Below are positions 6,192 to 41,495 of a stretch of DNA of 64,000 bases, piece by piece. Below the pieces are notes generated by a model. It ran no database searches. It saw only the letters and a list, made by a program, of their open reading frames with translations, and was not told the origin of the DNA. Position numbers and translations under genes: made by a program. This DNA is from Natronorubrum daqingense. GTDB lineage: Archaea > Halobacteriota > Halobacteria > Halobacteriales > Natrialbaceae. The DNA is taken from positions 1,178,001-1,242,000 of the forward strand of contig NZ_CP019327.1 of the NCBI RefSeq assembly GCF_001971705.1, read 5' to 3'. Numbering within the stretch: position 1 is the stretch's first letter; each line of letters begins with the position of its first letter.

Positions 6192-6330
6192 GGAATTCGG
6201 TGTAAAGTCGGGCGGACGTCTCTCTTCGAACCGTTCAACGTGTGGTGGCGCGCGCAGACCCGCAATAACTCGTGAAATCGCTATTTGAACGTGGAGAAAA
6301 CATATACGTGCACAATAGCGTTTGAACGAC

Positions 6331-6936
6331 ATGAATAGGCGCGCGTTCTTCGTCGGGTGTACCCTTTCGGTGGGCGTTGCGGGCTGTCTCGACGATCTTT
6401 CGGACGACGAGGGTGGCTCGGACGAGTTACCCGGCGACATCCGGCCAGACGACGACCCGGAGAACGTCCCTGCCGAATTACACTGTGAGGGGGAGGAATT
6501 TGACCGTATTCAGTATCAGGACGACGACGATGAGTTGGTGTACGGGGACGCAGACGCGTTTGCGTTACGAGTGATGGATCTCTCGTACGACTACGGAGAA
6601 AGCGCGACTTTCGAACTCGTGAACACCTCGTCGGAAGAGCAATTAACGAGCACGAGCACGCGGTGGAATCTGCAACTGTATACGGAAAATGGATGGGAAG
6701 AGGTTCGAGGAACGACTGAAGACCGTAGACTCGAGCACACTGACGAAGAAGTCAGTCACGAACCCGGAGACGGGTTTTCTTGGACGATCGAACTGACTGA
6801 AGACGGAATCAGTGAAGCGGGACCTGTCTCCGACAGCGTTGCGGTCTGTCCGGAATTACGGGCCGGCCGATTTCGGTTTATCTATACGGGGTACGCACCC
6901 GAGGACGTTGCCGTCCAATTCGACTTCGAACGGTAA
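6331..6936 (+). CDS. Haloarchaeal Tat lipoprotein of unknown function
   Basis: The 201-residue protein begins MNRRAFFVGC and has a short hydrophobic segment ending in the lipobox VAGC, so it should be exported by Tat and lipid-anchored at Cys19. After an acidic linker (about 21-50) comes an apparent beta-rich domain with two further cysteines (CEGEE and CPEL) that might form a disulfide. The C-terminal half (ETNTSS-like strand, WTIELTEDG, GRFRFIYTG) has the look of an immunoglobulin-like fold, known in many haloarchaeal lipoproteins. I preferred the ATG at 6331 over a TTG at 6322. No enzymatic motif is visible. It stands alone, convergent with the AEC carrier. Confidence 0.65.
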   Translation: MNRRAFFVGCTLSVGVAGCLDDLSDDEGGSDELPGDIRPDDDPENVPAELHCEGEEFDRIQYQDDDDELVYGDADAFALRVMDLSYDYGESATFELVNTSSEEQLTSTSTRWNLQLYTENGWEEVRGTTEDRRLEHTDEEVSHEPGDGFSWTIELTEDGISEAGPVSDSVAVCPELRAGRFRFIYTGYAPEDVAVQFDFER

Positions 6937-7040
6937 CGGGTCCGCCGAGGGTACTCGCTCGTCTGACAACTGCCAACTGGATAGTCGGTCCGTTCCGACC
7001 TCTGCAACCCGTTGAACTCGAGCGTAACGATAGCCCGTCC

Positions 7041-7970
7041 CTACGTCAACATCGTAATCAGGACGAACAGGGTGACGATCGAAACGAGGGTCGTCGCGAA
7101 GACGTTCACCGACGCGAACTCCTCGTCGCCCTGCAACTCGGCGGCGAAGACGTACGTCGAGACCGCCGTCGGCGTCCCCAGCATGACGACTGACGCGACG
7201 AACGTCGCCGTATCGACGGCGAGCGTCGAGAAGACCAGCCACGCGAAGATCGGCATCGCGACGATCTTTATCGCCACGACCGACCCCGTCGCGCCGAAAT
7301 CGATCGCCGGCAGGTCGACCTCGAGCGACGCGCCGACGCACAGCAAGGCGAGGGGTAACGCGAGCGAGCCGACGCCGTCGAGGCCGGTCGCGACGGTTCC
7401 CGGCACGAAGACGCCGCTCGAGCCGATGGCGAGTCCGGCGAATAGCGAGAGTAACACCGGATTCAACGCGAGCCCGCGCAGTTCGTCGATGAGTTCGACG
7501 TCGGCCCCGTTGAACGTCGAGAGCACCAGAATCGTCAACGGCACCTGCACCAGCGTTACGACCCCGAGGACGACGCTCGCGATCGCCGTGACCTGCGCGC
7601 CGAAGGTCGCCGCGACCAGCGGGAGCCCGAGGTAGCCCAAATTCGAGTGATACGATTGGACGATCGCGACGCTCTGTCGGTCGCTTTCCGAGCCCTGTAT
7701 CTGGTGGACGATCCACGCGAGGCCGGCCGTCGAGAACAGGACGAGCAACAGTCCCGCGACCAGCGTCAGCGACAGCAGTTCGCCGATGTTCTGATCGTAC
7801 ACCGAGATGAAGATGAGTGCGGGCAACGCGACGTAGTACGCGACGGCGTTCAGCCAGTCGGTCCGCGTGGCGTCGAGGACTCCCGAGAGCCGAAGTCCCG
7901 TCCCGACGAGGAGGACCACGAGCAACGCCAACAACCTGAGGAGAACGTCGAGCTCACCACCGAGTTCCAT
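7041..7970 (-). CDS. AEC (auxin efflux carrier) family transporter
   Basis: The protein has 309 residues and about ten membrane helices in the five-plus-five arrangement of the AEC family. Family features include YYVALPALIF in helix 2, the YHSNLGYLGLPL stretch in the first half, and the LGTPTAVSTYVFA stretch in the second. Archaeal and bacterial members carry small organic anions such as malate or malonate; auxin itself is not implied. It is 98 bases downstream of the XPB gene on the same strand and may be read through from it, though no functional link is apparent. Confidence 0.83.
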   Translation of the reverse strand: MELGGELDVLLRLLALLVVLLVGTGLRLSGVLDATRTDWLNAVAYYVALPALIFISVYDQNIGELLSLTLVAGLLLVLFSTAGLAWIVHQIQGSESDRQSVAIVQSYHSNLGYLGLPLVAATFGAQVTAIASVVLGVVTLVQVPLTILVLSTFNGADVELIDELRGLALNPVLLSLFAGLAIGSSGVFVPGTVATGLDGVGSLALPLALLCVGASLEVDLPAIDFGATGSVVAIKIVAMPIFAWLVFSTLAVDTATFVASVVMLGTPTAVSTYVFAAELQGDEEFASVNVFATTLVSIVTLFVLITMLT

Positions 7971-8068
7971 ACCGACCTCGAGTCGCCTCGGACGGTTTTC
8001 GGGAGTGGCTGCCTATGACGGCGTCAACCATTCACACGGGCCGTAGGACGCCCGTGTCGGTCGATCCG

Positions 8069-9538
8069 TCAGGATTCGTCCCGTCGACGCTTCGAGACCC
8101 GTTCCTCGCCCGTGTCCTCGGCGACGACTTCGTAGAGGACGGCTCGAGTGCCGTCCGATTTCGGGCGGAGAATCCGCCCGAGTCGCTGGGTGAACTCCCG
8201 TTCGCTCCCGCTGCCCGAGAGCACGACCGCGACGGAGGCGTCCGGCACGTCGACGCCTTCGTCGAGGACGTTCGAGGTGGCGATCCGCGTGTACGTCCCC
8301 TCGCGAAATCGCTCGAGGATTTCGCGCCGTTCCGCGGCCCCGCTCTGGTGGGTGATCGTCGGGATCAGGAAGCGTTCGCTGACGTCGTACGCGAGGTCGT
8401 TGTGGGCGGTGAAGACGATCGTTCGCTCGTCTCGGTGCTCGTCGAGGATCCCCTCGAGGGCCTCGAGTTTGGCGTCGCTACCGTACATGATCTCTCGAGC
8501 GCGCTGGCGCGCGAGCAGGGCCTCGCGGGCTTCGGGATCGCTCCCAGAGCGTTTGACGAGTTCTTGGTAGTCAGAACCTCGTTGCATCCGAATGTCGGAA
8601 CGGGCGAGGTAGTTCGTGAAGACTTCTTGCTTACGCTCGTACTCCTCGCGTTCTTCGGGCAGCAAGTCGACCTCGAGGCGTTTCACGTCGTAGTTGGCCA
8701 GGTGGTCGCCGGCCAACTCGTCGATATCGACGCGGTGGACGAGGGGACCGACGATGTCCGCGACGACCTCGTGGGCGTTATCGGGTCGCTCGAACGTCGC
8801 CGTCAATCCGAGGCGTGCGGGTGCGGCGAGCAGCTGAGCGATTTCACGGTAGCCCTCTCCGCCGAGGTGGTGGACCTCGTCGAAGACGACGAATCCGAAT
8901 CGATCACCCACAGAATCCGCCTTCAGGTACGCCGAGTCGTACGTCGAGACCGTGATCGCTTCGAGGCGTTGCTCGCCGCCCCCGAAGCGCCCGATGGGTT
9001 GATCGAACTCCGACTCGAGTTCTCGTTGCCACTGCTCGAGTAAGTCGATGGTCGGCACGACGACGAGTGTCGGAACCGAGAGCCGTTCGATCGCTTTCAA
9101 CCCGATGACGGTCTTTCCGCTTCCCGTGGGTAACTCGAGGACTCCCGCGGGAGCCTCCGCGGGTGTTGGCTCGGTGGCCGTCTCGCCAGCACTACTGTCG
9201 TCCCATCGGTCGGTCTCGAGCCACGCCTCGAGCGCCGTCCGTTGGTACGCTCGAAGCTCGTAGGCCGATTCCAGTGGTCGAAGTGATTCGAACGCGAGCA
9301 CCTCGTCGTCGACTCGTTCGGGGGTGTCCACGGCCTCGAGAACCGCAGTTCGGAGAACGGCGTATCGTCCCGCGGGAACGCGCCAGCCGTCGGTTCGCGG
9401 ATCCGCCTCGAGAGCGGGAACGGCCTCGGCAATCGTCCCGGGCGAGACGGACGCGTCGTCGAGGCCGTCGATCCGGACCGTTCCGTCCTCGTAGCGAAGG
9501 CGAATCTGGGTTGCCTCGTCGGTCGATGGCCGCGTCAC
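8069..9538 (-). CDS. XPB/Rad25-type DNA repair helicase
   Basis: This 489-residue SF2 helicase matches archaeal XPB. A damage-recognition-like N-terminal domain (1-90) precedes the helicase core. Walker A is LPTGSGKT (136-143), motif II is DEVH (220-223), motif V lies in ATSNVLDEGVDVPDA, and motif VI is QRLGRILRP. In other archaea XPB unwinds DNA together with the Bax1 nuclease, which is encoded on the same strand about 5.5 kb downstream here. The start is a GTG at 9538; no better ATG is in frame upstream. The gene is divergent from grpE, with a 181-base spacer. Confidence 0.9.
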   Translation of the reverse strand: MTRPSTDEATQIRLRYEDGTVRIDGLDDASVSPGTIAEAVPALEADPRTDGWRVPAGRYAVLRTAVLEAVDTPERVDDEVLAFESLRPLESAYELRAYQRTALEAWLETDRWDDSSAGETATEPTPAEAPAGVLELPTGSGKTVIGLKAIERLSVPTLVVVPTIDLLEQWQRELESEFDQPIGRFGGGEQRLEAITVSTYDSAYLKADSVGDRFGFVVFDEVHHLGGEGYREIAQLLAAPARLGLTATFERPDNAHEVVADIVGPLVHRVDIDELAGDHLANYDVKRLEVDLLPEEREEYERKQEVFTNYLARSDIRMQRGSDYQELVKRSGSDPEAREALLARQRAREIMYGSDAKLEALEGILDEHRDERTIVFTAHNDLAYDVSERFLIPTITHQSGAAERREILERFREGTYTRIATSNVLDEGVDVPDASVAVVLSGSGSEREFTQRLGRILRPKSDGTRAVLYEVVAEDTGEERVSKRRRDES

Positions 9539-9690
9539 ACCGTGGTGGTAGCCATTGGGTCAGCAAAAAACAGGTGGTCCCCGAACGCTCACTCGAGGAG
9601 GCTCGAGTGGGTGGCCGTCAACGGCTGTCGACCTCGCGTACTCCGTTCGACGGCGACCGACCGATCGGGACCAGACGGCGACCTCAATCC

Positions 9691-9698
9691 TTTTATTA
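9691..9698 (+). promoter_or_regulatory. TATA-like box of grpE
   Basis: TTTTATTA lies 22-29 bases before the grpE ATG, the spacing expected for an archaeal TATA box driving a leaderless or near-leaderless transcript. Confidence 0.55.
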
Positions 9699-9719
9699 CC
9701 AGTGTTCCTTGACTGGCAC

Positions 9720-10835
9720 ATGAGCGAAGACGAGGGTACGAACACGACCGCCCAGGGAGTCTCGTCCGAGGACCATCCCGAGGACGGCGACGCCGCGACG
9801 AGGGGTGCGGAGGAATCGGACGCCGAACCTGCCCCGCCCGCCGACACCGAATCGGAGCGGACCGAGGGTGCGACCGACGCGACGGCACACACGTCTGCGA
9901 ACGATGTGGAGCCCCGGACGACGCCGGAAACGAGCGAGGACATCCAACAACTCCTCGAGCAACTCTCCGAGTACGACGAGGACGTCGCCCAGCAGGTCAA
10001 TTCGATCGTCGAGGAGGCGCGAGACCTCAACGCAACGGTCACGAACCAGCGCGAAGAACTCGAGGATCTCTCCGAGCGCGTCACCGAGCAGGCCGACACT
10101 ATCGAGGAACTCAGAGCGGAACTCGAGGCCCGCGGCGAGAAACTCGAGGAGTACGAAGCGACCGAAGAGGATCTAAAGAGCCGACTCAAGCGCAAACAGG
10201 CCGACTTTCAAAACTACAAGAAGCGGGCCAAAAAGCGCCAACAACAGATCAAGGACCGAGCGACGGAGGACCTCGTCGAACGGCTCATCGGCGTTCGAGA
10301 CAACATGAAACGCGCGCTCGAGGAGGAAAGCGACGATACTGACAGCCTGCGCGAGGGTATCGAGATGACGATGCGCGAGTTCGACCGCATCCTCGAGGAC
10401 GAGAACGTTTCAGAGATCGATCCCGACCCCGGAACCGAAAGCGACCCACAGCGCCACGAAGTCATGATGCGCGTCGACAGCGACCAGCCCGAGGGCACTA
10501 TCGCCGACGTCTACACGCCCGGCTACGAGATGGGCGATAAAGTCATCCAGAACGCACAGGTTACCGTCTCGAACGGCGAACTCGAGGATCTCGATGACGA
10601 CTCGAGTGAGGACGGCGCGGGCGAGCAATCAGACTCCGATGGCGACGATACGGCCGACTCGACTTCAGAGACGGACGGCGACACCGGCGAGGACGCTGGT
10701 GCAACGGCGGTCGACGACGCAGGCGACGGTAATAGCGGTGACGGAGACGACGCGGGCGACGGTGGAGAAGCCATCGAACTCGGTGGTGAGGTCGAAACCG
10801 ACGCGGATAGTCGGTCGGCAGCGAGCGAGGAGTAG
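9720..10835 (+). CDS. grpE: GrpE nucleotide exchange factor with long acidic tails
   Basis: GrpE releases ADP from DnaK. The core is clear: a long heptad-rich coiled coil (about 80-200, with LKRKQADFQNYKKRAKKR) and the beta-wing domain with EVMMRVDSDQPEGTI and the usual C-terminal VIQNAQVTVSNG. The protein is 371 residues long, nearly twice the usual 180-210. The extra length is an acidic N-terminal region of about 70 residues and a C-terminal tail of about 85 residues made mostly of Asp, Glu, Gly, Ser and Thr. I chose the ATG at 9720 because it follows a well-placed TATA box. dnaK follows 201 bases downstream with its own promoter. Confidence 0.93.
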   Translation: MSEDEGTNTTAQGVSSEDHPEDGDAATRGAEESDAEPAPPADTESERTEGATDATAHTSANDVEPRTTPETSEDIQQLLEQLSEYDEDVAQQVNSIVEEARDLNATVTNQREELEDLSERVTEQADTIEELRAELEARGEKLEEYEATEEDLKSRLKRKQADFQNYKKRAKKRQQQIKDRATEDLVERLIGVRDNMKRALEEESDDTDSLREGIEMTMREFDRILEDENVSEIDPDPGTESDPQRHEVMMRVDSDQPEGTIADVYTPGYEMGDKVIQNAQVTVSNGELEDLDDDSSEDGAGEQSDSDGDDTADSTSETDGDTGEDAGATAVDDAGDGNSGDGDDAGDGGEAIELGGEVETDADSRSAASEE

Positions 10836-11003
10836 TTCGATCCTTCTTCCCTCGGACGTCGGGGATCATTGACAGGTCCGCCGACGATCGTTCGGATAGT
10901 GTACTCGCATAGTGTCATCGAGATCCGCGAGAGTACGCTCGGTAGAGGGCGTGTGGCGGGGATATTCGCCATTTAATTCGACTCGAGAAAGTGCCTAGTA
11001 ACC

Positions 11004-11010
11004 TTTAAAA
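11004..11010 (+). promoter_or_regulatory. TATA-like box of dnaK
   Basis: TTTAAAA is 27-33 bases upstream of the dnaK ATG, in an otherwise GC-rich spacer. This indicates that dnaK has its own promoter besides any read-through from grpE. Confidence 0.6.
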
Positions 11011-11036
11011 CAAAGTGCGCACAATAGCCGTCCACG

Positions 11037-12971
11037 ATGGCGAGCAACAAAATTCTCGGTATTGACCTCGGAACGACGAACAGCGCGTTCGCGGTGATGG
11101 AAGGCGGCGATCCGGAGATCATCGTCAACGCGGAAGGTGAACGAACGACGCCGTCCGTCGTCGCGTTCACGGACGACGACGAGCGCCTCGTCGGCAAACC
11201 CGCGAAGAATCAGGCGATTCAAAACCCAGAAAAGACGATCGCCTCGATCAAGCGCCACATCGGCGAGGACGACTACACCGTCGAGATCGACGACGAGGAG
11301 TACACCCCCGAACAGATTTCGGCGATGATCCTCCAGAAGATCAAACGCGACGCAGAAGAGTACCTCGGCGACGAGGTCGAGAAGGCCGTCATCACGGTCC
11401 CTGCGTACTTCTCGGACCGACAGCGACAGGCGACCAAAGACGCCGGCGAAATCGCCGGGTTCGAAGTCGAACGGATCATCAACGAGCCGACGGCCGCGTC
11501 GATGGCCTACGGCCTCGACGACGACTCCGACCAGACCGTTCTGGTTTACGACCTCGGCGGCGGAACGTTCGACGTTTCGATTCTCGACCTCGGCGGCGGG
11601 GTCTACGAGGTCGTCGCGACCAACGGGGACAACGACCTCGGCGGCGACGACTGGGACGAGGCCATCATCGACTGGCTCGCGGAGGAGTTCGAAGCCGAAA
11701 ACGGCGTCGACCTCCGGGAGGACCGTCAGGCCCTCCAGCGACTCAAAGACGCCGCGGAGGAAGCGAAGATCGAACTCTCGAGTCGAAAGGAGACCGAGAT
11801 CAACCTGCCGTTCATCACGGCAACCGACGACGGCCCGATCCACCTCGAGGAATCGCTTACGCGCGCAAAGTTCGAGTCGCTCACCAGCGACCTCATCGAG
11901 CGCACCGTCGAGCCGACCGAGCAGGCGCTCGAGGACGCGGGCTACGAGAAAGACGACATCGACGAGGTGCTCCTCGTCGGTGGCTCGACGCGGATGCCAC
12001 AGGTCGGCGAGAAGGTCGAGGAGCTAACCGGCAAGGAGCCCCAGAAGAACGTCAACCCCGACGAGGCCGTTTCGCTGGGCGCGGCGATTCAGGGCGGCGT
12101 CCTCGGCGGCGAAGTCGACGACATCGTTCTGCTCGACGTGACGCCGCTCAGCCTCGGTATCGAGGTCAAGGGTGGCCTCTTCGAGCGACTCATCGAGAAG
12201 AACACGACGATTCCAACCGAAGAGTCGAAGATCTTCACCACGGCGGCGGACAACCAGACCTCCGTCCAGGTCCGGGTCTTCCAGGGTGAGCGCGAACTCG
12301 CACAGAAAAACGAGATGCTCGGCGAGTTCCACCTGAGTGGCATCCCGCCAGCCCCCGCCGGAACGCCACAGATCGAAGTCATGTTCTCCATCGACGAGAA
12401 CGGCATCGTCAACGTGAGCGCGGAGGACAAGGGCAGCGGCGAGAGCGAGGAGATCACTATCGAAGGCGGTGCCGGCCTCTCCGACGCCGAAATCGACAAG
12501 ATGCAAGAAGAAGCCGAGCAACACGCCGAAGAGGACAAGAAGAAACGCGAACGGATCGAGGCCCGAAACACGGCCGAAGCCACGATCCAGCGAGCCGAGA
12601 CGCTCCTCGAGGAGAACGACGAGGAAGTCGACGACGACCTTCGAAGCGACATCGAAGCCGCAATCGACGACCTCGAGGAAACTATCGACGACACGGATGC
12701 GGACGCCGAGGACATCGAGGCGGCGACCGAGACCCTGAGCACGGAACTACAGGAGATCGGCAAGCAGATGTACCAAGATGCCGGTGCTGCGGGCGCTGGC
12801 GCTGGAGCTGGCGGTGCTGCCGGAGCTGGAGCCGCAGGCGGCGCAGCAGGCGCAGGTCCCGGTGGTATGGGCGGTGGCCCGAACCCGGGTCCTGGCGGCG
12901 CTGCAGCGGATGGCGAGGATGAGGAGTTCGTCGACGCCGACTTCGAAGACGTTGACGAAGACGAGGACTGA
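11037..12971 (+). CDS. dnaK: Molecular chaperone DnaK (Hsp70)
   Basis: The 644-residue protein is a full Hsp70. The ATPase domain has the phosphate-1 loop [10 protein letters not shown] (7-16), the [12 protein letters not shown] phosphate-2 loop, and the adenosine motif [12 protein letters not shown]. The substrate-binding domain and helical lid follow. The C-terminus has a Gly-Ala-rich linker (about 583-622) and a very acidic end ([16 protein letters not shown]). It works with GrpE just upstream and DnaJ just downstream. A short perfect stem (GACGAAGAC / GTCTTCGTC) straddles the stop codon. Only mesophilic archaea carry this set, usually explained by old transfer from bacteria. Confidence 0.97.
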
Positions 12972-28693: not shown

Positions 28694-29014
28694 GTCCGAT
28701 CGTTTGGTGCCCCGTCGAAAAGGCGTTCCGTTACCCGTCGTCCTCGAGGGTGTAAATAGACAGTCGTCGGGTCTCTCGATTCGTTCAATTCGAGGCAAAT
28801 ATTGACGAACGTATGAGGTGGGTCTCCAAGATACGGAGTAGCAGGCCTGGATTGGCGATCTTTGCCAGAATTCGATATGTGTGGTTTCTCCCAGGAAGAC
28901 TGTAACGATTAATAGAAACTGACCTCGGTAGCCGAACATATCATCGACTGTTGTCGAAGTGTGGTTGGGTTTTCAGAAGCCTTTTCATTTACTGGGGGCA
29001 AGGTTCGGCATAAC
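28694..29014. promoter_or_regulatory. Divergent spacer, flavoprotein versus korAB
   Basis: No gene is apparent in these 321 bases. The korA side has an AT-richer patch (CCTTTTCATTTACTGG, 28980-28995) about 20-35 bases before the ATG, the likely TATA region. A second AT-rich patch (AACGATTAATAGAAACTG) lies near 28905-28922. Confidence 0.4.
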
Positions 29015-30772
29015 ATGGCTGAGGATCTCAACTGGGCGGTTGGAGGCGAGGCCGGGGACGGTATCGACTCCACGGGAAAAATCTTCGCTCAGGCACTTTC
29101 CCGAGCCGGACGGCACGTATTCACGTCGAAAGATTTCGCGTCGCGAATCCGCGGCGGCTACACAGCGTACAAGATTCGAACGTCGGTCGAAGACGTCCAA
29201 AGCGTCGTGGATCGACTGGACATTCTCGTCGCGTTGACACAGCGAACTATCGACGAAAATCTCGACGAACTACACGACGGTAGTGCCGTCATCTACGACG
29301 GCGAACGCTCGTGGGAAGCCGAGATCCCAGATGAAGTTGAAGCAGTCGACGTTCCACTTAAATCGATCGCAGAGGATGCTGGCGGTGCGATCATGCGCAA
29401 TATCGTCGCCCTCGGTGCTGCGTGTGAAATCACCGGCTTCGACGTCGAATACCTCGACGAGGCCCTCGAGAAACGCTTCGGTGGCAAGGGCTCGAAGATC
29501 GTCGAGAACAACAAGGAAGCCGCACGCCTCGGTCAGGAGTACGTCCAGGAGCACTACGATTTGGACCACCTCGGCTACAACGTCGAGACGACGGACAACG
29601 ACTACGTCCTGCTCAACGGTGACGAGGCGATCGGGATGGGTGCCATCGCTGCCGGCTGTCGCTTCTATGCAGGCTACCCGATCACGCCCGCGACGAACGT
29701 CATGGAGTACCTGACGGGACGGATCGAAGACTACGGCGGTCACGTCGTCCAGGCCGAAGACGAACTGTCGGCGATCAACATGGCGCTCGGTGGTGCCCGT
29801 GCCGGTGCCCGCTCGATGACTGCGACCTCCGGCCCCGGGATCGACCTGATGACCGAGACGTTCGGACTCATCGCGACGAGCGAGACGCCACTCGTCATCG
29901 TCGACGTCATGCGCTCTGGCCCCTCGACCGGGATGCCGACGAAACAAGAACAGGGCGACCTCAACATGACACTCTACGGTGGTCACGGCGAAATTCCGCG
30001 CTTCGTCGTCGCCCCGACGACGATTGCCGAGTGTTTCTGGAAGACCGTCGAGGCGTTCAACTACGCCGAGAAGTACCAGACGCCAGTGTACGTGGTCTCC
30101 GACCTCGCACTCGCCGTCACCGAACAAACCTTCGAGCCGGACGTGTTCGACATGGACGACGTCGAAATCGACCGCGGAAAACTCGTCGATGACGACGAAG
30201 TCGACGAGTGGCTCGACGCACAGGGACGCTTCCGCGCCCACGCCGTCACCGACGACGGCATCAGTCCGCGCGCGAAACCCGGCACGGTCGACGGCGCACA
30301 CATGTCGACCGGCCTCGAGCACGACGAACTCGGTCGCCGGACGGAAGAGGAAGACGAGCGCGTCCAGCAAGTCGACAAACGCTACCGCAAAGTCGAAACT
30401 GCACAGAACGAAGAGGACTGGGATTACCGCGAATTCGGCGACGAGGACGCCGACAACCTCGTCATCTCGTGGGGGTCGAACGAAGGTGCACTTATCGAAG
30501 CGCTCGACTATCTCGAGGACGACGGCGTCGACGTGCGCGTCATTTCGGTTCCCTACATCTTCCCGCGGCCTGATCTCAGCGACGAGATCGAGGCTGCCGA
30601 GGAGACGATCGTCGTCGAGTGTAACGCGACCGGACAGTTCGCCGACGTGATCGAACACGACGCCCTTACCCGCGTCAAGCGCATCAACAAGTACACCGGC
30701 GTCCGCTTCAAGGCGGACGAACTCGCCGAACAGATTGTCGACCAACTCTCCGAGGAGGTACCAGCACAATGA
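29015..30772 (+). CDS. korA: 2-oxoacid:ferredoxin oxidoreductase alpha subunit (KorA type)
   Basis: The 585-residue protein fuses the gamma domain (about 1-190; GEAGDGIDSTGKIFAQALSR, SRIRGGYTAYKIR) to the alpha, pyrimidine-binding part (about 205-420; GCRFYAGYPITPATNVMEYL, QAEDELSAINMALGG). Together with the beta subunit it decarboxylates a 2-oxoacid to an acyl-CoA and reduces ferredoxin, replacing a NAD-linked dehydrogenase in haloarchaea. The name Kor (2-oxoglutarate) rather than Por (pyruvate) rests on remembered resemblance of the N-terminus to haloarchaeal KorA. The stop overlaps the ATG of korB (ATGA). Confidence 0.88.
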   Translation: MAEDLNWAVGGEAGDGIDSTGKIFAQALSRAGRHVFTSKDFASRIRGGYTAYKIRTSVEDVQSVVDRLDILVALTQRTIDENLDELHDGSAVIYDGERSWEAEIPDEVEAVDVPLKSIAEDAGGAIMRNIVALGAACEITGFDVEYLDEALEKRFGGKGSKIVENNKEAARLGQEYVQEHYDLDHLGYNVETTDNDYVLLNGDEAIGMGAIAAGCRFYAGYPITPATNVMEYLTGRIEDYGGHVVQAEDELSAINMALGGARAGARSMTATSGPGIDLMTETFGLIATSETPLVIVDVMRSGPSTGMPTKQEQGDLNMTLYGGHGEIPRFVVAPTTIAECFWKTVEAFNYAEKYQTPVYVVSDLALAVTEQTFEPDVFDMDDVEIDRGKLVDDDEVDEWLDAQGRFRAHAVTDDGISPRAKPGTVDGAHMSTGLEHDELGRRTEEEDERVQQVDKRYRKVETAQNEEDWDYREFGDEDADNLVISWGSNEGALIEALDYLEDDGVDVRVISVPYIFPRPDLSDEIEAAEETIVVECNATGQFADVIEHDALTRVKRINKYTGVRFKADELAEQIVDQLSEEVPAQ

Positions 30773-31632
30773 GCTCCGACGTACGATTCACCGACTTCAA
30801 ATCCGACAAACAGCCCACGTGGTGTCCCGGTTGCGGCGACTTCGGGACGATGAACGGTATGATGAAAGGCCTCGCCGAGACCGGCAACGATCCGGACAAC
30901 ACGTTCGTGGTCGCCGGCATCGGCTGTTCCGGAAAGATCGGGACCTACATGCACAGCTACGCGCTGCACGGGGTTCACGGTCGCGCGCTGCCGGTCGGCA
31001 CGGGCGTCAAGATGGCTCGACCCGACATCGAAGTGATGGTCGCCGGCGGTGACGGTGACGGCTACTCGATCGGTGCCGGCCACTTCGTCCACGCCGTCCG
31101 CCGGAACGTCGACATGTCCTACGTCGTCATGGACAACCGAATCTACGGTCTCACCAAGGGCCAAGCCTCGCCGACCTCGCGCTCGGACTTCGAGACCTCG
31201 ACGACGCCAGAAGGACCGAAACAGCCGCCAGTCAACCCGCTCGCACTTGCACTGGCCTCGGGCGCGTCCTTTATCGCCCAGTCGTTCGCCTCCGACGCGC
31301 TTCGACACCAGGAGATCATCGAGGAAGCCATTGAACACGACGGTTTCGGCTTCGTCAACGTCTTCAGCCCGTGTGTCACGTTCAACGACGTCGACACCTA
31401 CGACTACTTCCGCGACAGCTTAGTCGACCTGCAAGAAGAGGGTCACGATCCAAACGACTACGAGGCTGCCAAAGAGGTCATCCTCGACAGCGACAAGGAG
31501 TACCAAGGCGTGATGTACCAGGACGACGAGTCCGTTCCGTATCACGAACAACACGGCGTCACCGAGGACATGTCCGAAATCCCTGACGGCGCGCCGGAAG
31601 ACGCGATGGACCTCGTCCGCGAGTTCTACTGA
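30769..31632 (+). CDS. korB: 2-oxoacid:ferredoxin oxidoreductase beta subunit (KorB type)
   Basis: The 287-residue protein binds thiamine diphosphate and the [4Fe-4S] cluster. WCPGCGDFG (residues about 18-26) gives cluster cysteines, and a further Cys is at GIGCSGKIG. The ThDP motif runs from GGDGDGYSIGAGHF to VVMDNRIYGLTKGQASPTS. The fourth cysteine of the cluster is likely the one in VFSPCVTFND. It overlaps korA by four bases, so the two are co-translated. No separate ferredoxin-domain delta subunit is present, as usual for halophiles. Confidence 0.9.
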   Translation: MSSDVRFTDFKSDKQPTWCPGCGDFGTMNGMMKGLAETGNDPDNTFVVAGIGCSGKIGTYMHSYALHGVHGRALPVGTGVKMARPDIEVMVAGGDGDGYSIGAGHFVHAVRRNVDMSYVVMDNRIYGLTKGQASPTSRSDFETSTTPEGPKQPPVNPLALALASGASFIAQSFASDALRHQEIIEEAIEHDGFGFVNVFSPCVTFNDVDTYDYFRDSLVDLQEEGHDPNDYEAAKEVILDSDKEYQGVMYQDDESVPYHEQHGVTEDMSEIPDGAPEDAMDLVREFY

Positions 31633-32518: not shown

Positions 32519-32913
32519 GTTGCAACGTAGTCGGCGAGGTTCTATAGTTTCTCTGGTGACATAACTCGTGTTCAGTTCGTCCGGCCACTTTTCGTCGCTC
32601 GAGGAAGCCGTCGAATACCAGCGCGTAACCGCCAACCCGGGGCGAGTGCTGGTCGCATGTTCGTCGCTGTTATCCGCCAGTTGGTTTTCGTTTTCTGTTT
32701 TGGGTTCTCGCTCACGCTACTCGGGGCGCGCTCGTATCGAATCGTGCTAGCTCCGTTCGACCGACTCTTCAGCGACTGATGGCGCACACCATCTAGTGAA
32801 CTCGCACCTCCGACGATTGAGGAGAGGACAAGTCCCCTCTCACAACAGTTGTGAAGGAAACAAGTCCGAATATCGACTGGATAGTAACGGACGCACTCGC
32901 GAACCGTCTCCGT

Positions 32914-34599
32914 ATGGCAGAATGGCAGCGACGATCGGTGCTAGCAGGGGGCGTGGTGCTTTCGATTGGCGGACTCGCGTCGGTCGGTGCCGGGTCCGAC
33001 GGAGACGATACGCAGGACCTCCCGGATCCGGACGTTGACCCCAACCCGGAACTAGACGAAGACTGGCCCTCCTCCGATGGCGGCCCCGATCAATCTAGGT
33101 CTATCCAGGCGACCCGCGAGTTCGACGGCGACGCCCTCGAGGCAGCCTGGAGCGTCGACCACGACGGCAGCGTCGCCGTCGCCGACGACACGGTCTATAC
33201 GACGTCGGAGGAGTCTGTCCTCGCGCTCGAGGCGGCGGACGGGTCGGTCGTCTGGGAGACCGACGACCTCGACGTAAGCGGTCCGTCGGTCGCCGATGAC
33301 ACCGTCTATCTCAGCGACAGCGAAGTCGTCGCGCTCGACAGGGCTGACGGACGCGTGCGCTGGACCACCGACTTCGAAAACGGTGACGCGGGCAGTCAAA
33401 CGGTCGCGTACGACGCTGTCTTCGTCGTTGCTGACGGAACGCTGTACGCCCTCGAGACGGAGGACGGATCGATCCGCTGGGGCCTCGAGTCGATCCAAGA
33501 CGAGGATGGAGACGAACAGGCGTTCATCCGAGACGTCGCTGCGGCGAACGGCGTCGTCTACGCCGTCGCCGAGGGATACCGGGGCGTCGCGCTCGATCCG
33601 GAAACGGGCGAGGAAGTCTGGCAAACCGGAATCTACGGCGGTCAGGAGATTTATCCAAACCCGACTCGTGCGACGTCGACGGGTGCCCTCCTCGGGGGCG
33701 CGTACTACAATCGCGAAATCATCGATGCTGAGACGGGGGAGTCGTTCGAATACGGTCACATCGACTCGGAGTACGTCGATCCCGTTTTAGACGAGGAGAT
33801 GTCCGTACACGGAGGCCAACACGCCCTCGTCGGTCGATCCTACGGTATCGACGACGAGTATAGCTGGGGAATTAGCATCCACTCAACTCAGCGAGTCTCG
33901 ACCGTGATCACCGAGGAAACCGTCTACGTCTACGTGATGGAGGGCGATGGGTACCCGGACGCGGAGTACAGCACGGAACTTGTCGCTCTAGATCGGTACG
34001 ACGGGACCGAACAGTGGGTGCTCTCTGCCGACGACTCGCCCGTTGGCCCGATTCGAGCCCTCAGCGACGACACGATTTACGTTGATCACGACGGCGAACT
34101 CGTGGCACTCCGCGAGGAGCTCAACGAGGACGACCAGTCCGACGGTGAGGATGGAGACGGTAGTGAAGGCGATCAGCCCGACGAAGATGAAAGCAGTGAC
34201 GAGGACGATCGATCCGACGAGGAATCGGAGGACGGCGACTCCGACGGCAGCGACGACGAAACTGAGACCGAGGATGGCGACGATGAAACCGAGGAGGAAG
34301 GCGGCGACGGCGAAGGAACCGACAGCGACGATGACGATGCTGATACCGACACCGACGACAGCGACGACACCGACGCTGACGACGCGGATACCGACGAGGC
34401 CGACGACGCGGACGGAGAAGACGAGGTAGATGACGAAAACGAAACCGGTGACGAAGCCGACGGCGGGAATGGTGGGGACGAGAACGGCGACGCTGACGAC
34501 GGTACGCCCGGATTCACGACAGGAACCGGTATCGCGGGCGGCGCGCTTGGCCTCGAGTGGCTGCGCCGGCAGGCTGGTACGGACGACCCGGAGGAATAA
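32914..34599 (+). CDS. Exported PQQ-type beta-propeller protein with acidic stalk
   Basis: The 561-residue protein starts with a Tat-like signal (WQRRSVLAGGVVLSIGG). Residues about 75-420 show repeated beta-propeller blades of the PQQ-like type: VVWETDDLDV, VRWTTDFENG, IRWGLES, EEVWQTG and EQWVLS, each after a D-x-x-(T/D)G strand turn. A long Asp/Glu/Gly stretch follows (about 428-535). The end has TPGFTTGTGIAGG, a glycine-rich hydrophobic patch and a RR pair, which resembles a degenerate PGF-type C-terminal sorting signal. It is probably a surface protein on an acidic stalk. PQQ binding itself is unlikely to be implied. A GTG at 32851 is a less likely start. Confidence 0.75.
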   Translation: MAEWQRRSVLAGGVVLSIGGLASVGAGSDGDDTQDLPDPDVDPNPELDEDWPSSDGGPDQSRSIQATREFDGDALEAAWSVDHDGSVAVADDTVYTTSEESVLALEAADGSVVWETDDLDVSGPSVADDTVYLSDSEVVALDRADGRVRWTTDFENGDAGSQTVAYDAVFVVADGTLYALETEDGSIRWGLESIQDEDGDEQAFIRDVAAANGVVYAVAEGYRGVALDPETGEEVWQTGIYGGQEIYPNPTRATSTGALLGGAYYNREIIDAETGESFEYGHIDSEYVDPVLDEEMSVHGGQHALVGRSYGIDDEYSWGISIHSTQRVSTVITEETVYVYVMEGDGYPDAEYSTELVALDRYDGTEQWVLSADDSPVGPIRALSDDTIYVDHDGELVALREELNEDDQSDGEDGDGSEGDQPDEDESSDEDDRSDEESEDGDSDGSDDETETEDGDDETEEEGGDGEGTDSDDDDADTDTDDSDDTDADDADTDEADDADGEDEVDDENETGDEADGGNGGDENGDADDGTPGFTTGTGIAGGALGLEWLRRQAGTDDPEE

Positions 34600-36403: not shown

Positions 36404-36616
36404 TTAGAAGTTCATGAGGACGCCGATGGCGGCGCCAGCGATCGCCGTCCCGATGATCAGGACGATGATCGAGCCGAGTATTGCGCCGAGTCCGATGAAC
36501 GCCGTTCGGAAGTCCCTCGGTTTTCCGAGGAACCAGCCGGCGAGCATCACGTACACGGGAACCAGGACGACGCCGAAGACGACGAACAGGCCGATGTGGA
36601 CGAGCGAGTGCGTCAT
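36404..36616 (-). CDS. Small two-helix membrane protein in the Fe-S/NrfD block
   Basis: The 70-residue product has two membrane helices (about 5-27 and 42-66) joined by a charged loop (GKPRDFRTA), and a glycine- and alanine-rich second helix (GSIIVLIIGTAIAGAAIG). It sits between the NrfD-like gene (three bases upstream) and mrp (two bases downstream), so it is part of the operon. It could be an assembly or accessory subunit of the membrane complex. I find no known family for it from sequence alone. Confidence 0.7.
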   Translation of the reverse strand: MTHSLVHIGLFVVFGVVLVPVYVMLAGWFLGKPRDFRTAFIGLGAILGSIIVLIIGTAIAGAAIGVLMNF

Positions 36617-36619
36617 GGG

Positions 36620-37912
36620 TTAGATCTCCTCCGGGTCGAGTTCGACCATCGGGATGATCTTGGTCGCCAGTGCGATCAACAGCGCTGCGATAACGACGGT
36701 GCTCACAACGACCACCCATTCGATCGCGGTGGGGCTGTAGGATCCTGTCGGATACAGGTTCGCCAGCGGCGGCGTTGTCGGGTACAACAGCCCCTCGACG
36801 ACGAAGATCAGCTTCTTGATCCAGATCGCGATCGACACCGAGATGGCACCGGCGACGACCGCCGGCAGGCTGTACGCGCTCGGTCGGACGATGGTCGCCA
36901 GCATGTAGAGTGCGGGAATCGTGATTCCGGCGACCGCCACCCAGAACAGCGGCATAGTGAGCAGCGTCTCGGTCAACGCTTCGTCTTGCACCGGTGCCGC
37001 GTAGACGCCTGAGAGGGTGTCGTGCAACAAGAACCAAAGGACGGCCATCGAGAGCACCGTGAGCGCCTTCGTGAGCCCGCGGAACACCGCGTCGTCGATG
37101 AACTCCCAGTCGTAGGCGTATCGGAACGCGGCCCCGACGACGATGACGAACGCGATCGCAGACGCGAGCGACTCGAACAACATCGCAGGGCCGGTCGCCG
37201 CACCGAACCAGCCGGGCTGTGCGCCGACTAAGCTGAACAGCCACGGAACGACTCCGCCGCTCAAAAGCGGCACCAGCGCGAGAATCGCGATCGCGAGCCA
37301 GTAGGCCATCTGCTCCGCCTTTTCGTCTTCTTCCGGACGGTATCCGAGCAACAACAGGCCGTAGACGGGTCGAAGGTATCGCGGAACGCGGTCCATCAGC
37401 GCGTAGAGTTCCGCCCGCATCGTCAGCGTGAGGTACGTCATCGAGAGTACCAGGTACAGCGAGACGACGGCGACGTCCCACGCCAGCGGCGAGTGGTGGA
37501 CCGTCTGTGGCCACATGATCATCGTGTTGATCAACCGATCCGGGCCACCCAGATCGAAGACGATGTTGGCAGCCGCCATCGGCAGCGCGACCAGCGTGAC
37601 GATCTCACCGATGCGAGCGATCGGCTCGAACTGGTCCATCTTGAACACGCGGACGGCCGCGGAGACCGCGATTCCGCCGTGAGCGATCCCGACCCACCAG
37701 ATGAAGCTCCCGATGTACATTCCCCACGGGACGCCGCCGCCGGTACCCCAGTCGCCGAGACCCGTCATGATGAGTCCGTTTCGAAGCTGCGTGATCCAGG
37801 CCTCGAGGAACAAGAGCATTCCCAGGCCGAGGAGCACGAGCAGGGCCAGGAACTTCCACGTCGTCGTGTGGAGGGGCCTGAGAACCCGTTCTACCGGCAC
37901 GTCGTCAGTCAT
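36620..37912 (-). CDS. NrfD/PsrC-like quinone-binding membrane subunit
   Basis: The 430-residue protein has eight to ten membrane helices and matches the NrfD/PsrC/HmeB superfamily. These form the membrane anchors that exchange electrons with the quinone pool beside a ferredoxin-type subunit. Family-like stretches are GTGGGVPWGMYIGSFIWWVGIAHGG near the N-terminus and GGPDRLINTMIMWPQTVHHSPLAWDV. The ATG at 37912 overlaps the end of the Fe-S protein gene by eight bases, so the two are co-translated. In known systems a molybdenum catalytic subunit completes the complex; none is encoded here. Confidence 0.85.
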   Translation of the reverse strand: MTDDVPVERVLRPLHTTTWKFLALLVLLGLGMLLFLEAWITQLRNGLIMTGLGDWGTGGGVPWGMYIGSFIWWVGIAHGGIAVSAAVRVFKMDQFEPIARIGEIVTLVALPMAAANIVFDLGGPDRLINTMIMWPQTVHHSPLAWDVAVVSLYLVLSMTYLTLTMRAELYALMDRVPRYLRPVYGLLLLGYRPEEDEKAEQMAYWLAIAILALVPLLSGGVVPWLFSLVGAQPGWFGAATGPAMLFESLASAIAFVIVVGAAFRYAYDWEFIDDAVFRGLTKALTVLSMAVLWFLLHDTLSGVYAAPVQDEALTETLLTMPLFWVAVAGITIPALYMLATIVRPSAYSLPAVVAGAISVSIAIWIKKLIFVVEGLLYPTTPPLANLYPTGSYSPTAIEWVVVVSTVVIAALLIALATKIIPMVELDPEEI

Positions 37913-39164
37913 CCGCCTCACCTCCTGCCCACCGCGCGTCGATCTCTTCTCGTCTGTGTTCGGTCATGTCCATCTCCTCGTAGGAAACCGGCCCCTCCAC
38001 GGGCGTCGCGGAACTCGAGGGTTCGGGGCCGACGTACGTGATGTTCGGTTCGTTTCCGGCCTCGTCGAGGAGTTCGAACGTGTTGGAGTCCGACTTCTCC
38101 TCGAGGTGTCGTTGTGGCGCGTCATCCGGGTCGGTGATGTCGCCGAAGTGGATCGCGTCGGCCGGACAGGCGTCTTCGCAGGCGGTCGTTCCGACGAGGT
38201 CGGGGTCGTCGGAGTCCTGCCGGTGGACGCAGAACGTACACTTCCCCATGACGCCTTCCGGCGGGTTGCCGGCGACGGTGTCGCCGTGTTGGTCCGTTCG
38301 CGACTCGTCGAAGCCTCCCGCTTCGTCGGTTGGCTCCGCCCACTGGAAGTAGTTCACGCCGTAGGGACAGGCGACCTCACAGTAACGACAGCCGATACAC
38401 GTGTCGTAATCCGTGAGGACGAGTCCGTCGTCTTCTCGCTTGTACCGCGCCTGCGTCGGGCAGACGTACGTACAGGTCGGCCGCGTGCAGTGTTGACACG
38501 GTCGCGTCATCGAGTCGTCGTGGTCGTCGTCCCACTCGGCGTCCTCGTCCTCGGCCCAGCGGAAGACGTACGTCCAGTGGACCGCGGCGGAGGTGTTGTT
38601 CTCCTCTTTACAGGCTTCGGAGCACTGGAGGCAGGCGATACAGTTCTCGACGTCGATGGTCATCCCCAGTTGCCCGTTCGACTCCTCCGTCGTCGCCATC
38701 GTCTGCTCGTCCTCCCCGAGACAGCCGGCGAGTCCTGCCGTCGCCGTGGCCGCTGCGCCTGCACCGAGGGCCTTGAGCATCGACCGACGACTCTGTTCGT
38801 GATCGTCGGGAACTCGCGGAATCGAGGCGGCGGACTCGAGTGTCGTCTTCGTCGGTCGCTCGTCGACGCCGAACTCGGCTTCGACGCGGTCTCCGTGTCG
38901 TCGCTGGAACGCTTCCTTCGAGAGGTCGCCGTCGGCGATTCGATAGGCGTCTCGAGCGAGTCGCTTCCCGAGTTCGGTGTCGAAGTCGGTCTCGGCGAGG
39001 ACCTCTTCGGCCCACTCCTCCCACTCCGGCCCGGACAACGCTGGCGGTGGGCCGAACTGGGCGGGTTGCTCTTCGCCGTCCGGAACGGGAGTGTTCGTGG
39101 GGACATCTCCGCCGCCACAGCCACAGCCCTCACCGTCGGTACTCCCGCCGCAGCCGTTCACCAT
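37905..39164 (-). CDS. Tat-exported four-[4Fe-4S] ferredoxin protein with N-terminal extension
   Basis: Numbered from the ATG at 39164, this 419-residue protein has an unusual layout. First comes a 120-residue region with a Cys-Gly cluster (GCGCGG, Cys14 and Cys16), of the kind seen in the haloarchaeal ferredoxin N-terminal family. Then follows an internal Tat-like signal (SRRSMLKALG at 125-134 and lipobox LAGC at Cys148). The electron-transfer domain has four motifs: Cys175/178/181/185, Cys223/226/231/235, Cys256/259/262/266 and Cys309/312/329/333, as in DmsB/NrfC. The RR after 120 residues is odd for export. A GTG at 39173 is the alternative start. Confidence 0.85.
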   Translation of the reverse strand: MVNGCGGSTDGEGCGCGGGDVPTNTPVPDGEEQPAQFGPPPALSGPEWEEWAEEVLAETDFDTELGKRLARDAYRIADGDLSKEAFQRRHGDRVEAEFGVDERPTKTTLESAASIPRVPDDHEQSRRSMLKALGAGAAATATAGLAGCLGEDEQTMATTEESNGQLGMTIDVENCIACLQCSEACKEENNTSAAVHWTYVFRWAEDEDAEWDDDHDDSMTRPCQHCTRPTCTYVCPTQARYKREDDGLVLTDYDTCIGCRYCEVACPYGVNYFQWAEPTDEAGGFDESRTDQHGDTVAGNPPEGVMGKCTFCVHRQDSDDPDLVGTTACEDACPADAIHFGDITDPDDAPQRHLEEKSDSNTFELLDEAGNEPNITYVGPEPSSSATPVEGPVSYEEMDMTEHRREEIDARWAGGEADD

Positions 39165-39551
39165 CGACACCACCTTGCAGATCGAATCGGTCGCCGTGCG
39201 ATACCTCGACGCGAACGCGAGTGTGTACGTCTCATCTGTCGAATGATTTTGGAGACGAGACGGCTCGTCGCGGTGATCGGTCGCGGTGGGCTGTGCCCCA
39301 ACCGAGTACGATCAGCGGTTGCCTCCATTCGGATAGTCACCTACCTAGTCGTCGACCCCCTACCTCGGTGAGTCCACTTCTCAATATTACAGACCTTTTT
39401 ATACCCTGTCTATCGCGACGACCGTCTCCGGACTCACTGCCGTTTCAGTCGTTCTAGGGCCCGTCTTTCTCATCGTCGGTCGCCTCCTCCCGAGTCAAAT
39501 TGGTAACATAACTGAAACCTCAACATAAATACTCGGTGGCCGTCGGTCCGA
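39165..39551 (-). promoter_or_regulatory. Spacer upstream of the Fe-S protein gene with a strong TATA box
   Basis: In these 387 bases I see no supported gene. On the minus strand TATAAAAA occurs at 39396-39403, a good TATA box, but 232 bases before the ATG at 39164. Either the transcript has a long leader or a second, nearer promoter exists. The first leader bases hold an ATG at about 39325 opening a basic reading frame that I regard as non-coding. Confidence 0.45.
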
Positions 39552-40424
39552 CTACGCGTCGGGTTGGTCGCCAACGGACAGTTCGAACTCGTCTCGCGGT
39601 TTGCCCGTACAGGTCAGGATGTAGCCGTCTTCGACCGTCTCGTCGTCCAGTTCGTCGACGTTGTTTTCGGTCATTTCGACGAGTTCAGACCCGTCGCCGT
39701 CGACGCGGGACGTACACTGTCCACAGTTACCGGACCGACACTGGTAGGGCAACTCGAGTCCCTCATCCTCACCCGCTTCGAGCAAGTTCTCGTCTTCGGG
39801 CACCTCGACGGTTTGACTCTCGCCGTCCTCGAGCAGGTACTCGATTTCGTAGGACGCACCCTCGTCTTCGTCGTCGACGTGTGCGCCGACCTCGAGTTCG
39901 AACGCTCCGCGTGGTTCGCCGGTGCACGTCAAGACGTATCCGTCTTCGATCGCGTCGTCGTCTAGTTCGTCCACGTCGTTGTTCGTCATCTCGACGAGTT
40001 CCGAGCCGTCACCGTCGATACGGGACATACACTGTCCGCAGAAGCCTTCCCGACACTGATATGGAAGTTCCCAGTCCTCCGCTTCGCCAGCTTCGAGGAG
40101 ATTCTCGTCTTCGGGGACCTCGATCGTCCCGCCGTCGTCGTCCTCGAGGAGGTAGGCAATTTCGAAGGGGCCCTCGTCTTCATCTTCGTCCTCGGTGTCG
40201 CCGTTGTCCTCGTCTTCGTCGCCGTTTTCTTCTTCATCGTCGTCCTGTCGTTGTGCCGGTTGGTCACCGAATTCGAACAGACCGACACAGCCGGCTAACG
40301 CGACCGAACTGCCACTCCCCACTGCTGCGAGGAGCCGTCGGCGCTGGACGACAGAGAGATTCTTCGGAAGCTCGATACGGTTCTCACACGGTCCATCCTC
40401 ACCGGAACAGCCATCGTCGCTCAT
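39552..40424 (-). CDS. Lipid-anchored tandem [2Fe-2S] ferredoxin
   Basis: The 290-residue protein has a Tat motif (QRRRLLAAVG, residues 27-36) and lipobox LAGC (Cys46), then an acidic linker (52-85), then two plant-type ferredoxin domains. Cluster ligands are Cys124, Cys129, Cys132 and Cys167 in domain 1 and Cys229, Cys234, Cys237 and Cys272 in domain 2. The domains align without gaps over about 94 residues and are roughly three quarters identical by eye, so the duplication is fairly recent or under strong constraint. It should be outside the cell, anchored in the membrane. It lies upstream of the four-cluster and NrfD genes on the same strand. Confidence 0.87.
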   Translation of the reverse strand: MSDDGCSGEDGPCENRIELPKNLSVVQRRRLLAAVGSGSSVALAGCVGLFEFGDQPAQRQDDDEEENGDEDEDNGDTEDEDEDEGPFEIAYLLEDDDGGTIEVPEDENLLEAGEAEDWELPYQCREGFCGQCMSRIDGDGSELVEMTNNDVDELDDDAIEDGYVLTCTGEPRGAFELEVGAHVDDEDEGASYEIEYLLEDGESQTVEVPEDENLLEAGEDEGLELPYQCRSGNCGQCTSRVDGDGSELVEMTENNVDELDDETVEDGYILTCTGKPRDEFELSVGDQPDA

Positions 40425-40472
40425 ACTTCAACCGAGGACACACGCCGCGCTGAGCGTTCGTCTCAAGTATGA
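40421..40472 (-). promoter_or_regulatory. Inverted repeat over the start of the tandem ferredoxin gene
   Basis: TCATACTT (40421-40428, which contains the start codon on the minus strand) and AAGTATGA (40465-40472) form a perfect 8-bp inverted pair with 36 bases between. The element covers the leader of the ferredoxin gene. It might be an operator or an RNA stem around the start codon. A minus-strand ATAAAAAG lies just upstream at about 40477-40484 and may be the TATA box. Confidence 0.4.
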
Positions 40473-40850
40473 AGGGCTTTTTATCGCCGGCCGTTCCTCG
40501 CCGCTGATCGCCAGTTCCACCGGGTACAAAAGATTCCGTGAGAGGACCCACGCTGGGCAGTCGTGTCGACCTGAGTGAACTCCAGCTGACGCCACCGACC
40601 CAGCACGTGTCAGTACGCTCGAGACTCCGATCAACGCGAGCCTGGATACTACAGCGGTTTTTCCACCGACTCGCCGCCCACACTCGCGAGACACGATCCA
40701 TCCCCGACGCGGGAAAGGATCGCGTCGCTCTTCGCTCGAGCGCCGAGCCTCGATAGAGTCTTGGAGTCAGTCAGATCGACGGGGAGAGACGAGTCCCCAG
40801 CCGGAGTGACTGGGAAAATGGCAGGAGTCGGACGTACCGTTACGTGGCAG
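40473..40850. other. Spacer between the ferredoxin gene and its upstream regulator gene
   Basis: Apart from the AT-rich box at its left end, I see no gene, repeat or RNA in this stretch. Both flanking genes are on the minus strand, so it forms the upstream region of the ferredoxin gene. Confidence 0.4.
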
Positions 40851-41495
40851 TTACAACGACTGCTGTTCGAACAGCGACGTGACGAGCTTCGATTGTACGG
40901 CGCTCAGTCGCTGGGAGACCGCCGACGGCGAGACGCCTAGGCGGTCTGCAAGCTCGTCGAGATTGGCCTCCCGAGGCGTTTCGAAGTAACCGGCTTCGAC
41001 GGCGACGCAAACCGCTTCGCGTTGCTTGTCGGTGACGCCGTCCACGTCGATCTCGAGGGACGATTCCGCGTTCCCCCCGCCTGCGTGACTGATTCGTCGA
41101 AGTTGAACCGTCGCGCCGGTTTCGCGCAGTTCCTCGACGAGCGATGTGAGCACATCGTTCGAGGGAGTCATGACGACGATGTCCATCGCGCCAGCTTCGT
41201 AGCGTTCGATCGAGGTCGTACACTCGTGTGCGTGAAAGATCGGACAGATACACCGACCTGACACGTCGTTGACTAGGTACTGTTGACCTCCGGTCTCGGG
41301 ATCAGTGACGGCGGACCGACATTCGACGTCGGTCTCTCGAGTCTCGTCCGTGGGGACGAGGTTTCGCGTTACGTCATCGCTGCGCGGTCCCGACTCGAGG
41401 ATCGAACAGTTCGCGGCCGGATGCGGTTCGATCGTGAATTCAGCACGGAGCGACGACGATTCGTCGAGCGCTCCGTTCGTTCCAGATACTGCCAT
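40851..41495 (-). CDS. NarO/DmsR-like HTH_10 regulator with Cys-rich region
   Basis: The 214-residue protein joins a Cys-bearing N-terminal region (Cys30, Cys59, Cys82, Cys84 and Cys92, the last three in GRCICPIFHAHEC) to a middle domain and a C-terminal HTH_10 (VTDKQREAVCVAVEAGYF, then DELADRLGVSPSAVSQRLSAV). This resembles NarO and DmsR of halophiles, whose cysteines are needed to sense low oxygen or redox and which control nitrate and DMSO respiration. It is the gene just upstream of the exported ferredoxin/NrfD block, on the same strand. Control of that block by redox is the obvious guess. Confidence 0.8.
   Translation of the reverse strand: MAVSGTNGALDESSSLRAEFTIEPHPAANCSILESGPRSDDVTRNLVPTDETRETDVECRSAVTDPETGGQQYLVNDVSGRCICPIFHAHECTTSIERYEAGAMDIVVMTPSNDVLTSLVEELRETGATVQLRRISHAGGGNAESSLEIDVDGVTDKQREAVCVAVEAGYFETPREANLDELADRLGVSPSAVSQRLSAVQSKLVTSLFEQQSL

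Follow-up and report, generated by a model that had tools for sequence, protein, structure and literature searches.

The locus examined here raises the question of what an NrfD-type quinone-site subunit might do in a gene cluster that has no catalytic subunit nearby. The window (the whole 64,000-nt stretch of DNA analysed) spans C1:1178001-1242000 of a haloarchaeal genome (G000) of 3.84 Mb that is 99.94% complete. All the genes that the preliminary description had placed on its minus strand (regulator, ferredoxin, iron-sulfur protein, NrfD, small membrane protein and Mrp) were found to be present, Mrp falling just beyond the range which that description covered (36404-41495). As judged from open reading frames and profile matches, the order of transcription is REG, FER, FES, NrfD, sm, Mrp. 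The features are as follows:

40851-41495, minus strand: REG, a regulator with HTH_10 and DmsR_N domains and the motif CX(n)CXCX7C (PF04967, 68.7 bits; PF24277, 28.9 bits)
40461-40484, minus strand: promoter-like element ATAAAAAG-N10-TTGAGA upstream of FER
39552-40424, minus strand: FER, a Tat lipoprotein with two tandem plant-type [2Fe-2S] domains (two Fer2 stretches)
39379-39402, minus strand: promoter-like element ATAAAAAG-N10-TTGAGA upstream of FES
37905-39164, minus strand, ATG start: FES, with a Ferredoxin_N domain, an internal Tat motif and four [4Fe-4S] motifs (PF16947, 85.2 bits, and Fer4 families)
36620-37912, minus strand: NrfD, an NrfD/ActC-like quinone-site membrane subunit (PF03916, 92.5 bits)
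36404-36616, minus strand: sm, a small membrane protein of 70 aa with two hydrophobic helices
35316-36401, minus strand: Mrp, an Mrp/ApbC-type P-loop NTPase with a FeS_assembly_P domain (PF10609, 309 bits; PF01883, 34.9 bits)

FES and NrfD overlap by 8 bp, and NrfD, sm and Mrp follow one another at intervals of 2-3 bp (2 bp from sm to Mrp); FES-NrfD-sm-Mrp is a tight operon. REG lies 426 bp from FER, and FER 387 bp from FES, each of the two being a unit of its own. FER and FES have a promoter-like element in common: the pattern ATAAAAAG-N10-TTGAGA occurs at two sites in the whole window, one before each of these genes, where 0.03 would be expected, a figure that overstates the significance because the pattern was derived from its own two sites. 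Shortly past the end of Mrp, positions 32851-34599 encode a Tat-type protein that appears to contain PQQ-like repeats and has a long tail rich in Asp and Glu.

All the features that define the NarO/DmsR group are found in REG, namely the HTH_10 domain, the DmsR_N domain (scoring above its cut-off of 27 bits) and the Cys motif, which we take to be the mark of NarO-type low-oxygen regulators; REG is probably such a regulator. FER carries an RRR Tat motif, a lipobox Cys at position 46 and eight Cys ligands arranged twice as C-x4-C-x2-C...C, its two Fer2 domains being identical to each other at 69 of 96 aligned positions. The twin Arg, the lipobox Cys and all eight ligand Cys are invariant among 10 homologues. 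FES contains 16 Cys in four CxxC-type sets, and its best family models (NCBIfam) are DsrO, QrcC and ArrB; the Pfam profile search found no molybdopterin domain in it. Its Tat motif is internal, with the RR at position 129 of a 422-aa reading, behind the N-terminal Ferredoxin_N domain. Three Cys precede both, and similar Cys-rich tails were seen in two of the other loci (L054 and L100).

The PDB matches of NrfD are confined to chains of the subunit C type of alternative complex III (ACIII). Relative to ActC of R. marinus, and numbering from a 433-aa reading, NrfD keeps the quinone-site residues Ser164 and Asp169 and has Asp123 in place of His139, Leu228 in place of Asp253 and Lys370 in place of the gate residue Arg395. 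An Asp at the position of the protonating His of ActC is also found in Wolinella PsrC, QrcD and HybB (PMC8076601). The small protein sm matched no Pfam family; its homologues occupy the same place in the operons of relatives. Mrp likewise follows NrfD and sm in most of the paralogous operons described below, and is probably an Fe-S cluster carrier for the complex.

We propose, with a probability of about 0.6, that the operon would constitute a stand-alone menaquinone oxidoreductase module, with FER as its extracytoplasmic carrier and REG as a low-oxygen switch, and that it would have branched off from a haloarchaeal "mini complex III" (FES-NrfD-sm-Mrp) in which Asp replaces His at the quinone protonation site. 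NrfD would provide the quinone site, at the outer face; after Tat export, FES would relay electrons through its four [4Fe-4S] clusters; and the lipid-anchored FER would carry them outside the cytoplasm, in place of the halocyanin or cytochrome c of sister modules. Mrp would load the Fe-S clusters, and the NarO/DmsR-type regulator would turn the genes on at low oxygen. Complex formation, the role of FER as redox partner and the regulation are what we infer, the place of FER in the complex being the weakest step.

The preliminary description had noted the lack of a catalytic subunit among the neighbouring genes, which is borne out, and no unpaired one was found elsewhere in the genome. A genome-wide profile search returned two PF00384 genes, one for a 998-aa enzyme of the DmsA type, which has a DmsB and a DmsC of its own, the other for a 714-aa soluble enzyme of the NasA type. 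The genome contains no unpaired candidate for a molybdoenzyme partner of the window NrfD, and a distant enzyme of this kind was rejected as partner since both genes are accounted for. The catalytic molybdenum subunit that characterizes complex iron-sulfur molybdoenzymes (CISM) of the Psr, Dms or Ttr type is thus missing. The accompanying premise, that a molybdoenzyme completes the known NrfD systems, is not supported: NrfABCD, Hyd-2, DsrMKJOP and ACIII are not completed in this way (PMC8076601), ActB is devoid of molybdenum (PMC10100899), and bare FES-NrfD-sm-Mrp operons are common in haloarchaea.

One such operon lies elsewhere in the host genome, with the order HTH regulator-FES-NrfD-sm-sm-Mrp (L005, G000:C1:945000-962000, at 6202-11330). 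The genome also has an unlinked second NrfD (C1:2128225-2129556, L004) and an unlinked second FES (C1:1601720-1603273, L009), both of the paralogous type. The window operon has the features of the FES-NrfD-sm-Mrp module, namely a Ferredoxin_N-type FES, a long NrfD, the small transmembrane protein and Mrp in this order. A phylogeny of 27 NrfD proteins places that of the window with those of two other genomes, G253 and G045 (support 98/97), and this group joins four molybdenum-linked proteins (97/93), the paralogous operons all falling outside the clade. In G253 and G045, FES-NrfD-sm stands opposite a divergent Tat lipoprotein, which contains a domain of the haem subunit of ethylbenzene dehydrogenase (EB_dh); no such lipoprotein was found in the host genome. 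In the four molybdenum-linked genomes (G029, G128, G212 and G285), a PhsA/ArrA-like molybdoenzyme is encoded directly upstream of FES-NrfD. The position equivalent to ActC His139 is occupied by His in all paralogous operons and in a Chloroflexi relative, by Asp in the window and the molybdenum-linked proteins, and by Ser in the EB_dh-linked pair.

Some further details of these relatives were noted. Beside FES-NrfD, L054 (3978-6657, in G253) and L055 (10380-13203, in G045) encode, along with the EB_dh lipoprotein, a weakly glutamyl-tRNA-reductase-like protein. Loci L056 (4044-13377), L058 and L059 combine the PhsA/ArrA-like molybdoenzyme, FES, NrfD and sm with a delta-type chaperone, an HdrA-like Fe-S protein of 703 aa and Mrp. 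Genes resembling 2-oxoacid:ferredoxin oxidoreductases occur near FES-NrfD in the window (28961-31632), in G253 (L054, 10019-12639) and in G045 (L055, 4744-7358), which suggests an inherited position.

The Chloroflexi relative has FES-NrfD-sm followed by a cytochrome c lipoprotein, and each of the three genomes sampled from g57, a genus without cytochrome b, has halocyanin genes immediately upstream of FES and on its strand (L101, 7939-8999; L102, 5179-5742; L112, 10253-10798). These halocyanin genes in three sister operons and the Chloroflexi cytochrome c support the notion of a module with a changeable carrier. On these sequence comparisons, the simplest account would be that FES-NrfD recurs as a self-contained core, whose outside partner can be a halocyanin, a cytochrome c, an EB_dh lipoprotein, a molybdoenzyme or FER.

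Full-length tandem relatives of FER proved rare among 292 genomes of the class, and within the family (125 genomes) the sole other carrier is G282. Altogether, 9 of 10 genomes, representing four families and two kinds of NrfD, have FER no more than 5.5 kb away from FES and NrfD; the exception is G282, where it stands alone. Eight genomes from three other families carry a cassette in which FER and FES are accompanied by CoxG, a sulfonate-type ABC binding protein, a Tat lipoprotein with two repeats and an NrfD of a different, shorter kind. This cassette, including the NYVVTDD-containing lipoprotein, for which no Pfam family was matched, and the ABC transporter, is conserved in L061, L062, L063, L065 and L096-L099. 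The exact combination seen in the window, FER with FES-NrfD-sm-Mrp, was found in no other genome sampled (292 of the class, 125 of the family). Conservation of the ferredoxin with the remaining genes is therefore partial: FER is missing from the two closest operons, those of G253 and G045, where the EB_dh lipoprotein is found instead, and it is met again beside FES and NrfD in three further families. The latter recurrence supports the anchored ferredoxin as the likely redox partner on the outside.

This distribution bears on how FER is to be read. Conceivably, FER is a mere neighbour serving something else, and FES-NrfD-sm-Mrp acts like its paralogue, passing electrons from menaquinol to halocyanin. 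The separate transcription unit 387 bp from FES, the absence of FER from the two closest operons and the isolated homologue in G282 would all fit; yet the association of FER with FES and NrfD in eight further genomes of three other families, the promoter-like element common to both genes and the replacement by Asp of the quinone-site His of the paralogous operons make this improbable. Still less credence can be given to the idea that a molybdoenzyme encoded elsewhere uses the module as its membrane anchor. Its close phylogenetic neighbours do have a PhsA/ArrA-like subunit directly upstream of FES-NrfD, but the want of an unpaired PF00384 gene in the genome largely refutes it.

Another reading, along the lines of the preliminary description, is an outward chain in which NrfD and FES would oxidise menaquinol and FER would hand the electrons to an external acceptor (a sulfur compound, a mineral or a partner cell) or to a separate exported reductase. 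Tat proteins on the outer face, the lipid anchor, the anaerobic-type regulator and the sulfonate-type ABC binding protein and CoxG that adjoin FER, FES and NrfD elsewhere are in line with it. However, no surface conduit gene was found among the window ORFs at 35-42 kb, and no result favours extracellular electron transfer specifically. The potential of plant-type [2Fe-2S] centres is usually far lower than that of menaquinone, so that an outward chain would need to be driven by the proton motive force. Wolinella Psr provides a precedent for such outward flow (PMC8076601). Overall, we regard the outward chain as rather unlikely, and the menaquinone oxidoreductase module with FER as its carrier remains the preferred reading. 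Within it, the usual potential of plant-type centres tips the balance slightly towards flow from the low-potential ferredoxin into the menaquinone pool, Qrc-like and energy-conserving, over flow from menaquinol to ferredoxin.

Known systems resemble the window operon in part. QrcABCD, the cytochrome c3:menaquinone oxidoreductase, resembles it in the QrcC match of FES, in an Asp at the TMH2 protonation site (compare QrcD Asp120; PMC8076601) and in the proposed use of a low-potential carrier that exchanges electrons with menaquinone via NrfD at the outer face; it differs in that the operon lacks the multihaem cytochrome QrcA as well as QrcB, and has a ferredoxin instead of cytochrome c3. ACIII (ActABCDEF) shares the ActC type of NrfD with its quinone-site Ser and Asp, a four-cluster protein resembling the Fe-S domain of ActB, and the replacement of bc1, a function that we propose for the sister module. 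Unlike ACIII, the operon has no MopB-like ActB domain fused to the Fe-S domain, neither PF00384 gene belonging to it; no multihaem ActA, monohaem ActE or second NrfD (ActF) was found among the ORFs around it, and its carrier is a [2Fe-2S] lipoprotein. Among NCBIfam models, FES and NrfD match DsrO and DsrP best, both under the cut-offs, and the Lys at the gate Arg position is shared with DsrP; in contrast to DsrMKJOP, DsrM, DsrK and DsrJ are absent from the surrounding ORFs. Haloarchaeal DmsABC/PsrABC molybdoenzymes share the families of the B and C subunits and a DmsR/NarO-like regulator, but the window lacks the A subunit and its NrfD is long and ActC-like rather than of the short PsrC/DmsC type.

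The paralogous operon, which may serve aerobic respiration via halocyanin, is relevant to a broader problem. About a third of haloarchaea are without bc1 (PMC8305020), and how electrons pass from quinone to halocyanin in these organisms is described as unresolved (PMC3403918, PMC8305020); for natronoarchaea, one study reports no complex III and no alternative homologues (PMC6176080). No literature linking NrfD modules to complex III in haloarchaea was found. A search for bc1 cytochrome b (PF13631) was negative in the host genome and positive in the control, Haloferax volcanii; haem-copper oxidases are present in the host. Across 292 haloarchaeal genomes, and with a threshold for the paralogous NrfD (E 1e-130) set before the results were seen, 29 had both cytochrome b and the paralogous NrfD, 194 cytochrome b alone, 67 NrfD alone and 2 neither (G052, under the family cut-off, was scored as lacking cytochrome b). 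Hence the paralogous core occurs in 67 of the 69 genomes without cytochrome b versus 29 of the 223 with it (Fisher's test, 5e-40 when genomes are counted without regard to kinship and 1.5e-8 by genus, with 20/21 versus 14/56). PF13631 may also match a nitrate-reductase-linked cytochrome b, which would weaken this contrast, not create it. A haem-copper oxidase is likewise missing from the two genomes with neither component (G007 and G093); G128 has the module and no such oxidase and is a small counter-example. Within a single genus (g38), the module was found in 5/5 sampled genomes without cytochrome b and in 1/2 with it.

This complementary distribution and the halocyanin genes upstream of FES in g57 make the paralogous FES-NrfD-sm-Mrp a strong candidate for the role of the missing complex III. 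The wider proposal, in which the module would be the menaquinol:halocyanin oxidoreductase of bc1-less haloarchaea and the window operon its anaerobic paralogue, with the anchored tandem [2Fe-2S] ferredoxin replacing halocyanin, strikes us as evenly poised. The window shows that an NrfD module need not include a catalytic subunit, and the near-universal occurrence of the module among the cytochrome-b-less genomes sampled bears on the question of what replaces complex III. In the window, the same core would have acquired a lipid-anchored ferredoxin as its partner, a carrier that would be of a type new to NrfD systems.
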